Source: Qipengyuania sp. JC766 (GTDB lineage: Bacteria; Pseudomonadota; Alphaproteobacteria; Sphingomonadales; Sphingomonadaceae). From it: a stretch of 64,000 nt of DNA. This document shows positions 17,256 to 57,603 of the stretch, piece by piece. The stretch is from the NCBI RefSeq assembly GCF_040717445.1, contig NZ_JBFEFL010000001.1:1870001-1934000 (forward strand). The letters run 5' to 3'. The notes beneath the pieces were generated by a model. It did not search any database, was not told the origin of the DNA, and was given only the letters and a program-made list of their open reading frames with translations. The translations under genes were made by a program, and so were the position numbers. Numbering within the stretch: the first letter of the stretch is position 1; every line of letters starts with the position of its first letter.

Positions 17256-17420
17256 CCTGCCCCCTCTGTCAGGAAACCTGAGAGCGTACCCCTTCGGTGG
17301 CGCCACGCGGCGCGCTTTCCAGAGTGCCTGTCCAACCGAGCGGTCCGGTTGCCTGAGAGTTTCCGGGGCGGTTGCTCCTTCGGCGTCGCGTGCGAGCTAC
17401 CGCCCGCGAACTCTCCCGCT
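17256..17420 (-). promoter_or_regulatory. Tandem glycine riboswitch
   Basis: On the minus strand two glycine aptamers follow each other about 45 bp before gcvT. Aptamer 1: GGGAGAG (17417-17411), then GCCGAAGGAGCAA and AAACTCTCAGGCA. Linker and aptamer 2: GGACAG, CTCTGGA, CACCGAAGGGG, CTCTCAGGTTTCC and GACAGAGGGG. These are the hallmark conserved strings of the class, in the right order. Tandem glycine aptamers usually switch gcv genes on when glycine is high. No clear terminator stem is visible between it and gcvT, so control may act on ribosome access. Confidence 0.93.
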
Positions 17421-17500
17421 CGATCGCCCGGCCAGAATCACTCCCGGCCGGGAGACGATGCTGCGATTGCGCAAGGCGGGGGCCGCGTCAATGGCGGGCG

Positions 17501-53127: not shown

Positions 53128-53152
53128 GGAACGCCAGGTCCGCACGACCGTT
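53128..53152 (+). promoter_or_regulatory. EcfG-type promoter of small lipoprotein gene
   Basis: GGAAC at 53128-53132, 17-bp spacer, GTT at 53150-53152. This is the consensus recognised by general stress sigma factors of the EcfG class in alphaproteobacteria. It is 32 bp upstream of the ATG at 53185, the right distance for a short leader, and ecfG itself lies 6.5 kb away. Confidence 0.7.
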
Positions 53153-53184: not shown

Positions 53185-53463
53185 ATGAAGCGTCTTGCGA
53201 TACCAGCACTTGCAGCCTCGCTCGCTCTGGTCGGATGCGGTGAGGCGGATGCGCCCACCACCGAAGCGATCGACGGAACCGAGCCGACCGTGACCGAGCC
53301 GACGCCTTCGGAGCCGATGATGCCCGGGGACGAAAGCGAAGTTACCGATACTACCGATAGCGATGGCAGCATGACGAACGACGATGCCGCAGGATCCACA
53401 GACGGTGCCGACGTGCCGATGGAAAGCGATCCGAACGCCGATGAGACGATCCAGGTCGAGTAG
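53185..53463 (+). CDS. Small acidic lipoprotein, predicted EcfG regulon member
   Basis: 92 residues. Lipoprotein signal peptide with lipobox ALVGC (Cys 17); the mature ~75 residues are extremely acidic and Thr/Ser/Pro-rich (PTTEAIDGTEPTVTEPTPSEP), without Lys or Arg, and probably disordered. Strong ribosome site AAAGGAGAACGG. Preceded by an EcfG-type promoter, so it is expected to be induced under general stress. Function not recognised; it may be a cell-envelope spacer or antioxidant tether. Confidence 0.82.
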   Translation: MKRLAIPALAASLALVGCGEADAPTTEAIDGTEPTVTEPTPSEPMMPGDESEVTDTTDSDGSMTNDDAAGSTDGADVPMESDPNADETIQVE

Positions 53464-55943: not shown

Positions 55944-55969
55944 GGAACCGGTGCGCCGACAGGGACGTT
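55944..55969 (+). promoter_or_regulatory. Possible EcfG-type promoter of the response regulator
   Basis: GGAAC at 55944-55948, then 18 bp, then GTT at 55967-55969. The spacer is one base longer than in the three clearer sites of this window. It is about 37 bp upstream of the ATG at 56007. Confidence 0.45.
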
Positions 55970-56006: not shown

Positions 56007-56417
56007 ATGAGCCGGAAAAAAGGGATCGGGACGATTCTCGTCGTTGAGGACGATCCGATCGTGCGTCTGGCAGCCATCGATACGCTAAAGGAAGCTGGCG
56101 CGTCCGAAATCCGGGACTGTTCGACCACCGAAGATGCGCTTGCGATCCTGCGTGAGTGGAAGCCCGATGTGGTTGTTCTCGACGTGCATCTGGCCGACCG
56201 GGACGACGGATGGGCCATCGCAGAACTCCTCAGCACGATCGGCCCCCGTCCACCGAAGATCATCTTTTCGACGGGGTCGCCGCAGGACATTCCAGACGAC
56301 ATCGCAGGACTGGGAACCGTGCTTGCCAAGCCGGTTGCACCCGCCAATCTCGTTGCGGCGGTGTCTGGCCAGGCACGGGAAACCCTGCTGTCCGGCCTGC
56401 TCCGGCGACCCGGCTGA
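56007..56417 (+). CDS. Single-domain response regulator
   Basis: 136-residue CheY-like receiver: acidic pair E-D-D at residues 13-15 (VVEDDPI), phospho-acceptor Asp 59 (VVLDVHLADRD), Ser/Thr in IIFSTGSP and the lysine in LAKPVAP. No output domain. Start at 56007 (MSRKKGIGT); TTG at 55968 lies inside the putative promoter and is unlikely. The I-F-S-T-G turn recalls the altered Tyr/Thr region of stress-response single-domain regulators such as SdrG, but the full FATGUY motif is not there. The general-stress genes begin 376 bp downstream. Confidence 0.85.
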   Translation: MSRKKGIGTILVVEDDPIVRLAAIDTLKEAGASEIRDCSTTEDALAILREWKPDVVVLDVHLADRDDGWAIAELLSTIGPRPPKIIFSTGSPQDIPDDIAGLGTVLAKPVAPANLVAAVSGQARETLLSGLLRRPG

Positions 56418-56495
56418 ACACATCCGCTTTCAAATTCACAGAGCTACACGCGCGTCAGTGGGTAATGCCGCGCACTGTAGAAAAAGCGAAATCGA

Positions 56496-56540
56496 AGAAA
56501 AAAGGCCTTCTCTCCACTTTCCGGGAGAGAAGGCCTTCGG
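56496..56540 (-). terminator. Strong leftward rho-independent terminator without an annotated gene
   Basis: Stem AAGGCCTTCTCTCC (56502-56515) pairs perfectly with GGAGAGAAGGCCTT (56524-56537), 8-nt loop. Only on the minus strand is it followed by a T-run (TTTTTTCTTC); on the plus strand the next bases are CGGGATCG. No minus-strand protein gene ends here, which points to an unannotated minus-strand transcript. It might still act as a poor terminator for the response regulator gene. Confidence 0.8.
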
Positions 56541-56735
56541 GATCGTATCACCAGCCGCTTGGACGGGAGGGGGGGTCTCGGCGGTGACAAGGAGAAAATG
56601 CGCCGACCGAAATCCGGTTCCCGGGGTCCGAACTTTTTTTAAAGAATATCGGAAAACATTGAATTTTCAGCTCTTCGTCCGCCTTCCGGTAAAGTAGCCT
56701 GCAGACCGCACAACCACCGTATACCACGGTAAGAG
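56497..56735 (-). ncRNA. Candidate EcfG-dependent small RNA, antisense orientation upstream of phyR
   Basis: This 376-bp gap (56418-56793) has no ORF. On its minus strand an EcfG-class promoter (GGAAC at 56766-56762, GTT at 56744-56742) predicts a transcript start near 56735, and a strong leftward terminator ends at about 56497, framing a ~240-nt RNA. It contains a conspicuous C-rich single-strand candidate, ACCCCCCCTCCCGTCC (about 56570-56585 region, minus strand), of the kind that pairs with ribosome-binding sites. The phyR transcript starts from the same palindrome in the opposite direction. Prediction only; no transcript evidence. Confidence 0.45.
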
Positions 56736-56739
56736 TAGC

Positions 56740-56766
56740 GGAACTTAATCTGCGCGCACGCGTTCC
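56740..56766. promoter_or_regulatory. Palindromic EcfG-type promoter of phyR
   Basis: GGAAC (56740-56744), 17 bp, GTTCC (56762-56766). Read rightward it is GGAAC-N17-GTT about 27 bp before the phyR ATG; because GTTCC is the complement of GGAAC, the leftward reading is also GGAAC-N17-GTT. EcfG control of phyR gives positive autoregulation, as known for the general stress response. Confidence 0.82.
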
Positions 56767-56793: not shown

Positions 56794-57603
56794 ATGTCGC
56801 TTGGGGAACAAGTCGCCTCCAACCTACCTTACCTGCGTCGCTACGCGCGCGCGTTGACGGGCAGCCAGGCAACCGGAGACGCGTTCGTTCGCGCCACTCT
56901 GGAAGCGGCGCTGGCCGACGAGAGCCTTCGTGGGGAACTCGAAGGAGGTCGCGTGCCTCTCTACCGCGCCTTCAACAAGGTCTGGTCCAGCGCCTACCTC
57001 GAAGTGGGTAAGGAAGACGACGGTACGCAGGGCCATGAGGGCGCTGCACGGGATCGGCTGACCCAGATTACGCCCCTGAACCGGCAGGCTCTCCTCCTCA
57101 CGACGCTGGAGGATTTCAGTGCTGCTGATGCGGCGGAGATCATGGGGCTGGAACCCGGCGATATCGAACGCCTGGCGCAGGAAGCAATCGACGAGATCGA
57201 TCGCGAATCCTCGACGAACGTGCTGATCATCGAAGACGAGCCGCTCATTTCGATGCAGCTCGAAGACCTGGTCCGCTCTCTCGGCCACGATATCTGCGGC
57301 ACGGCAGCCACGCGTACGCAGGCCCAGGAAGTGGTCGCCGAACGCACCCCCGGCCTTGTGCTGGCGGATATCCAGCTCGCGGACGGATCATCGGGCCTTG
57401 ATGCTGTCGATGACATCCTTTCCATCAGCAGCGTGCCGGTAATCTTCATCACTGCATATCCAGAGCGCCTGCTCACGGGCGATCGTCCGGAGCCGACTTA
57501 CCTCGTCACCAAGCCGTTCCAGGAATCGACTGTCCGGACTGCGATTAGCCAGGCGCTGTTCTTCGGGTCCAGCGCTCCCCTGTCGCGCAATCAGGCCGAC
57601 TGA
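56794..57603 (+). CDS. phyR: Anti-anti-sigma response regulator PhyR
   Basis: 269 residues. The N-terminal ~135 residues are a sigma-factor-like domain (LPYLRRYARALTGSQATGDAFVRATLE and ALLLTTLEDFSAADAAEIMGL), which binds NepR; the C-terminal receiver starts at VLIIEDEPLISMQ with phospho-acceptor Asp 192 (LADIQLADG), T in ITAYPERLL and K in VTKPF. When phosphorylated by the HWE kinases it sequesters NepR and frees EcfG. Ribosome site AAGAAAGGG. Preceded by a palindromic EcfG-type promoter. Confidence 0.96.
   Translation: MSLGEQVASNLPYLRRYARALTGSQATGDAFVRATLEAALADESLRGELEGGRVPLYRAFNKVWSSAYLEVGKEDDGTQGHEGAARDRLTQITPLNRQALLLTTLEDFSAADAAEIMGLEPGDIERLAQEAIDEIDRESSTNVLIIEDEPLISMQLEDLVRSLGHDICGTAATRTQAQEVVAERTPGLVLADIQLADGSSGLDAVDDILSISSVPVIFITAYPERLLTGDRPEPTYLVTKPFQESTVRTAISQALFFGSSAPLSRNQAD

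Follow-up and report, generated by a model that had tools for sequence, protein, structure and literature searches.

Layout of the phyR locus and its predicted small RNA

The window analysed here, 64,000 nucleotides (nt) of Qipengyuania sp. JC766 (contig NZ_JBFEFL010000001.1, positions 1,870,001 to 1,934,000), contains a full EcfG-NepR-PhyR-HWE kinase locus consisting of phyR, a CHASE/HWE histidine kinase, nepR, and an extracytoplasmic function (ECF) sigma factor of EcfG type. Sequence comparison points to a real, conserved and structured small RNA (sRNA) gene at this general stress locus, almost certainly EcfG-driven, which lies in the intergenic space between the end of a response-regulator gene (56417) and the start of phyR (56794). 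An earlier note on this DNA had proposed an "antisense" RNA of about 235 nt in the same space, and the features from which it started are present: a strong terminator on the minus strand only (56538-56501, 15 pairs, T-run 56504-56497), no protein gene leading into it, and a run of cytosines upstream of it (56575-56561). The features of the locus are as follows.

56497..56590, minus strand: predicted sRNA of ~94 nt (minimum free energy -43.9 kcal/mol, z -6.0; covariance-model match 95.6 bits)
56617..56621, minus strand: -35 element GGAAC, EcfG type, from sequence and pattern match (GGAAC in 138/138 distinct related loci)
56597..56600, minus strand: -10 element CATT, 16 nt after GGAAC (CGTT in many Novosphingobium)
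56546..56589, minus strand: 5' hairpin, stem UGUCACCGCCG / CGGC(U)GGUGAUA (fold; covariation)
56561..56575, minus strand: C-rich loop CCCCCCCUCCCGUCC, proposed mRNA-binding seed (core CCCCCUCCCGUCCAA invariant in the genera found by blastn)
56539..56545, minus strand: single-stranded linker CGAUCCC (conserved in alignments)
56501..56538, minus strand: intrinsic terminator hairpin, followed by a U-run at 56504-56497 (covariation)
56794..57603, plus strand: phyR (NCBIfam NF006623 PhyR family, E 2e-107), divergent from the sRNA
56007..56417, plus strand: single-domain response regulator (Pfam Response_reg), convergent with the sRNA
56740..56764, plus strand: EcfG promoter of phyR, GGAAC-N16-CGTT (pattern match; minus-strand mirror not conserved)

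Conservation, structure and promoter of the sRNA

We compared the intergenic region with 59 relatives by blastn and found matches of 80-89% identity in 14 further genera of the family, every one of them upstream of phyR and all confined to 56495-56640 (the 14 are matching genomes counted from the listed relatives, and the window's own genome is among the loci). Read 5' to 3' on the minus strand, the conserved unit begins A/T-rich and continues with GGGAACC, then C[A/G]TT after 16 nt and, some 6 nt further on, a hairpin, a linker and the terminator. Across the aligned loci the hairpin reads GUCACCGCCG ... CGGC(U)GGUGAU around a loop of CCCCC(C)UCCCGUCCAA, with the linker ACGAUCCCGAA and the terminator behind it, and the loop core is the same in all 14 genera. 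The 94-nt RNA that would start from the promoter within this unit folds far better than its dinucleotide shuffles, whereas the 241-nt interval of the earlier note (z -1.8) folds hardly better than shuffles. The 5' end of the RNA (~56590) was set from promoter spacing and conservation, with a possible error of a few nucleotides.

Both helices of the predicted RNA covary in the alignments. When 90 distinct sequences are aligned by covariance model, 11 of the 14 terminator pairs show changes on both sides and 98% of cells are paired; this alignment is itself fitted to the structure, and slid controls fall to 39-52%. The 5' hairpin is nearly invariant within the main group, and its covariation comes from orthologs of a Novosphingobium subgroup, in which the stems differ (AUCACCACUGG/CCGGUGGUGAU, GUUGCCACCGG/CCGGUGGCAAC) and the loops differ but stay C-rich. 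With these variants included, 217 of 231 cells pair (94%) and compensatory changes occur in 5 of 11 pairs, values reached by none of 2000 shuffles; this alignment was made on sequence only, with the pairs placed by hand, and several of the compensations are one sequence each. In a subgroup of Novosphingobium-type genomes the C-rich loop is longer, with up to 13 consecutive cytosines in one locus (L272).

A search of 397 Sphingomonadales genomes with a covariance model (R1) gave matches in 154, of which 141 had E < 1e-10 and all belonged to one GTDB family. Among the 13 weaker matches, five that we examined were divergent orthologs and one was a terminator look-alike; the weak matches in the Novosphingobium subgroup, whose genus assignment comes from position and named relatives, are true orthologs at phyR. 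Genera among the matches listed include Erythrobacter, Qipengyuania, Porphyrobacter, Croceicoccus, Altererythrobacter, Tsuneonella, Citromicrobium, Pontixanthobacter and Novosphingobium. R1 gave no match in the families sampled from the rest of the class. A second model that included the divergent members (R2) added only five weak matches in other families (L279-L283), which we dismissed as mostly terminators with neither phyR nor GGAAC nearby. A second match within one genome (L053, 36.8 bits) was likewise a terminator look-alike with neither the first hairpin nor the promoter, and not a paralog. The phyR loci of other sphingomonad genera yielded no divergent ortholog even with filters off (best 14 bits), nor any convincing alternative unit of GGAAC, C-rich stretch and terminator.

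The gene phyR is divergent from the sRNA in 73 of 80 named loci, at a distance of 145-1555 nt, and these are all the loci in which phyR falls within the retrieved DNA (in the other 7 that DNA stops 108-891 nt from the sRNA on the phyR side). Such a hairpin might instead be a terminator or DNA element only, one that insulates phyR from the convergent response-regulator gene and whose conserved upstream bases are a protein-binding site, and its location between convergent units in this genome would suit that role. However, conservation extends beyond the terminator to the promoter, the exposed loop and the linker, covariation is seen in the 5' hairpin, and in Qipengyuania and Novosphingobium the whole sRNA unit is kept despite the insertion of a Crp/Fnr-type gene (family assigned by eye) between it and phyR, all of which makes a DNA element highly improbable. 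The inserted Crp/Fnr-like regulator carries an N-terminal cysteine motif, C-x2-CPLxxC (L069, L077, L055, L065).

The same comparisons bear on where transcription would begin. The earlier note had derived its RNA from a bidirectional phyR promoter, reading GGAAC-N17-GTT in both directions at 56740-56766. That string is present, but the minus-strand site (56766-56742) has AGTT as its -10 element and exists only by virtue of two extra cytosines after CGTT. Of 100 relatives whose phyR has an EcfG site (GGAAC-N16/17-CGTT) in front of it, 5 carry the two cytosines, against about 6 expected by chance (1 in 16). Because the frequency of GTTCC in relatives is that of chance, the mirror EcfG site at 56742-56766 is a chance feature on this comparison, and we ruled it out as the source of the RNA. 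A cis antisense element of ~235 nt transcribed from this site would moreover include 145 extra nucleotides that are not conserved (blastn matches stop near 56640, leaving 56641-56735 without counterparts) and that fold poorly as part of the long interval, and there is no gene opposite for it to be antisense to; we regard this proposal as extremely unlikely. The sRNA is intergenic and not antisense because it overlaps neither phyR nor the response-regulator gene and no gene lies on the opposite strand. The earlier note was right about the object but mistaken in its promoter, its length and its label.

What it had missed is an internal minus-strand promoter, GGAAC-N16-CATT (56621-56597), which has the -35 element, the spacer (16-17) and a tolerated variant of the -10 element (CGTT) that define the EcfG regulon. 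At this position GGAAC is invariant in the 138 distinct related loci, and C[A/G]TT follows after exactly 16 nt in 127 of them (CGTA in five). The -10 box is mostly CATT in Erythrobacteraceae and the EcfG consensus CGTT in many Novosphingobium. General-stress promoters of the sphingomonad Sphingopyxis granuli are flexible in their -10 box; CATT is one of the commonest forms, and EcfG transcribes a promoter of this form, that of mltA2, in vitro (PMC7083833). Because GGAAC is invariant, the spacing to C[A/G]TT is kept, and EcfG uses CATT in S. granuli, we assign the sRNA promoter to EcfG with good confidence. Another ECF sigma factor or the housekeeping sigma factor might transcribe a genuine sRNA that stands outside the general stress regulon, given that the -10 is CATT rather than CGTT in most Erythrobacteraceae and often reads CATTAT, which shares 4 of 6 letters with TATAAT. 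We consider this quite unlikely, as GGAAC is invariant at N16 spacing, CATT is replaced by CGTT in Novosphingobium, letters 4-6 of CATTAT vary freely, no TTGACA-type -35 element stands at the right place (a promoter scan gave no sigma-70-like site), and EcfG accepts CATT in a sphingomonad (PMC7083833). The comparisons support the earlier idea of a stress-regulon sRNA built into the phyR locus.

A probable GsrN-like regulator and its candidate targets

We consider it likely that the locus encodes a ~94-nt, EcfG-induced, trans-acting sRNA that has a C-rich loop and works like GsrN of Caulobacter. The sequences themselves show the promoter motif, the covarying RNA structure, the terminator, synteny with phyR and the phylogenetic range, whereas transcription, EcfG dependence, base-pairing and targets are our inference. 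Under stress, PhyR would free EcfG from NepR, and EcfG would transcribe the sRNA leftward from its own promoter, from ~56590 to ~56497 on the minus strand, ending at the intrinsic terminator. The C-rich loop most likely pairs with G-rich stretches of several mRNAs, such as GGGAGG-type ribosome-binding regions, and this pairing would change translation or stability of the target mRNAs. The general stress response would thereby gain a post-transcriptional arm of the kind that GsrN provides in Caulobacter.

Expression of GsrN in Caulobacter crescentus is driven by the stress sigma factor. Through a C-rich 5' loop this RNA pairs with G-rich mRNAs, the katG leader among them, and gsrN genes are as a rule found near phyR-nepR-sigT (PMC5869019). 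The sRNA described here shares the marks of a GsrN-like RNA as far as these can be read from DNA: it is a small RNA whose general-stress sigma promoter has the -35 element GGAAC; it lies near the phyR-nepR-ecfG locus, as do most gsrN genes of Caulobacteraceae, and is divergent from phyR wherever phyR is in range; and its 5' hairpin is predicted to expose a C-rich loop, in line with the long run of cytosines that the earlier note had compared with GsrN. It differs from GsrN in loop sequence, since GsrN targets read like GUCGGGGGGCG whereas the complement of the loop here is GGACGGGAGGGGG, and in having no matching G-tract in the katG leader of its own genome.

Several observations weigh against the interpretation as a whole. 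The -10 element of this genome, CATT, is weaker than CGTT in vitro (PMC7083833); members of the Novosphingobium subgroup (L271, L273, L275) have no clear U-run after an intact terminator hairpin; the leader of katG, the best-known target of GsrN, is C-rich in this genome (CCCCCCGACCCCG) and offers no G-tract for GsrN-type pairing; and long sites complementary to the loop are not in excess, with 84 matches versus 117 for the reversed control. Throughout the genome only the sRNA gene itself matches the loop exactly. Targets, if any, would therefore use short seeds, and we ruled out katG as a target on account of its unsuitable leader; the target set thus likely differs from that of GsrN.

A search for CGGGAGG at ribosome-binding sites returned candidates that mostly represent ordinary Shine-Dalgarno enrichment, and no test lifted them above that background. 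In this genome they include a 150-aa membrane protein, acs, nuoD, nuoE and ccmG-like genes (names assigned by eye). The strongest is the 150-aa membrane protein (L243, G000:C1 near 1266723, minus strand), whose leader CGGGAGGGGAGGGTTATATG gives a predicted duplex of -30 kcal/mol; its leader is G-rich in many relatives, but the candidate is not clearly stronger there than in genomes without the sRNA.

That complementary sites are not enriched would also fit an sRNA whose main role is that of a sponge, titrating a C-rich-binding RNA chaperone, Hfq or another RNA, instead of pairing with ribosome-binding regions of mRNAs, and so would the strong conservation of the C-tract as composition while its exact sequence changed in the Novosphingobium subgroup. 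Yet most lineages keep the loop letter by letter, beyond what composition would need, and the nearest functional counterpart, GsrN, acts by pairing with mRNA (PMC5869019). We judge a sponge unlikely.

Other small RNAs provide further comparisons. The putative GsrN-like RNAs of Rhizobiaceae, Brucella, Bradyrhizobium and Rhodopseudomonas (PMC5869019) resemble the sRNA in intergenic position, EcfG site, closeness to phyR and C-rich loop, but the covariance models used here gave no convincing match outside the family. PmaR of Agrobacterium (PMC6234868) also has an accessible C-rich loop; it is restricted to Agrobacterium and a Rhizobium strain, and the text of that paper reports no general stress promoter. 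Of 4227 Rfam families, none reached its gathering score in the interval, and related loci gave only sub-threshold matches. The alphaproteobacterial sRNA ar14 (RF02344) overlaps weakly (15.9 bits versus a gathering score of 58.8). The Caulobacter sRNA CC1840 (RF01521) is alike in its 5' hairpin with a CCCGUCC-containing loop, its linker and its terminator, but its match to one Novosphingobium locus is weak (18.8 bits versus a gathering score of 50, E 1.8), and the resemblance is probably convergence. One Novosphingobium copy (L055, 4825-4970) has sub-threshold similarity to the Rfam Caulobacter sRNAs CC2171 and CC1840, possibly a distant link to the Caulobacter C-rich RNAs. The papers searched mention no sRNA beside phyR in Erythrobacter, Novosphingobium or Sphingopyxis. 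The sRNA is a new sequence family of GsrN-like kind, compared with Caulobacter GsrN by description and not by sequence.

It is conceivable, though we hold the idea only tentatively, that Erythrobacteraceae and Novosphingobium invented a GsrN-type regulator independently and without homology, placing their own C-rich-loop sRNA under EcfG beside phyR. If so, C-rich riboregulators driven by a stress sigma factor at the phyR locus would have arisen convergently and might be a general feature of the stress response in Alphaproteobacteria. The targets here would then differ from those of GsrN, leaving out katG and perhaps including genes, for instance nuo, ccm and acs, whose ribosome-binding sites read GGGAGG. 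Erythrobacter litoralis was the published survey's example of a species with "no apparent gsrN-like gene" (PMC5869019), yet a large fraction of its family carries the sRNA, in the position and behind the promoter that one would expect. This host group is large and ecologically important, including marine phototrophs and aromatic-degrading Novosphingobium, and would allow the role of C-rich stress RNAs to be studied in a second lineage, with a defined, easily deleted element of ~95 nt as the candidate for a post-transcriptional arm of the general stress response.

Other features of the window

Two more EcfG-type promoters (GGAAC-N16/17-CGTT) were found on the plus strand, one at 55944-55969 upstream of the single-domain response regulator (56007-56417) and one at 53128-53152 upstream of a 92-aa lipoprotein-like open reading frame (53185-53463). 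By these promoter motifs, the general stress locus extends beyond phyR, the kinase, nepR and ecfG. Elsewhere in the window, a glycine riboswitch (Rfam RF00504, 66 bits) lies at 17331-17428 on the minus strand.
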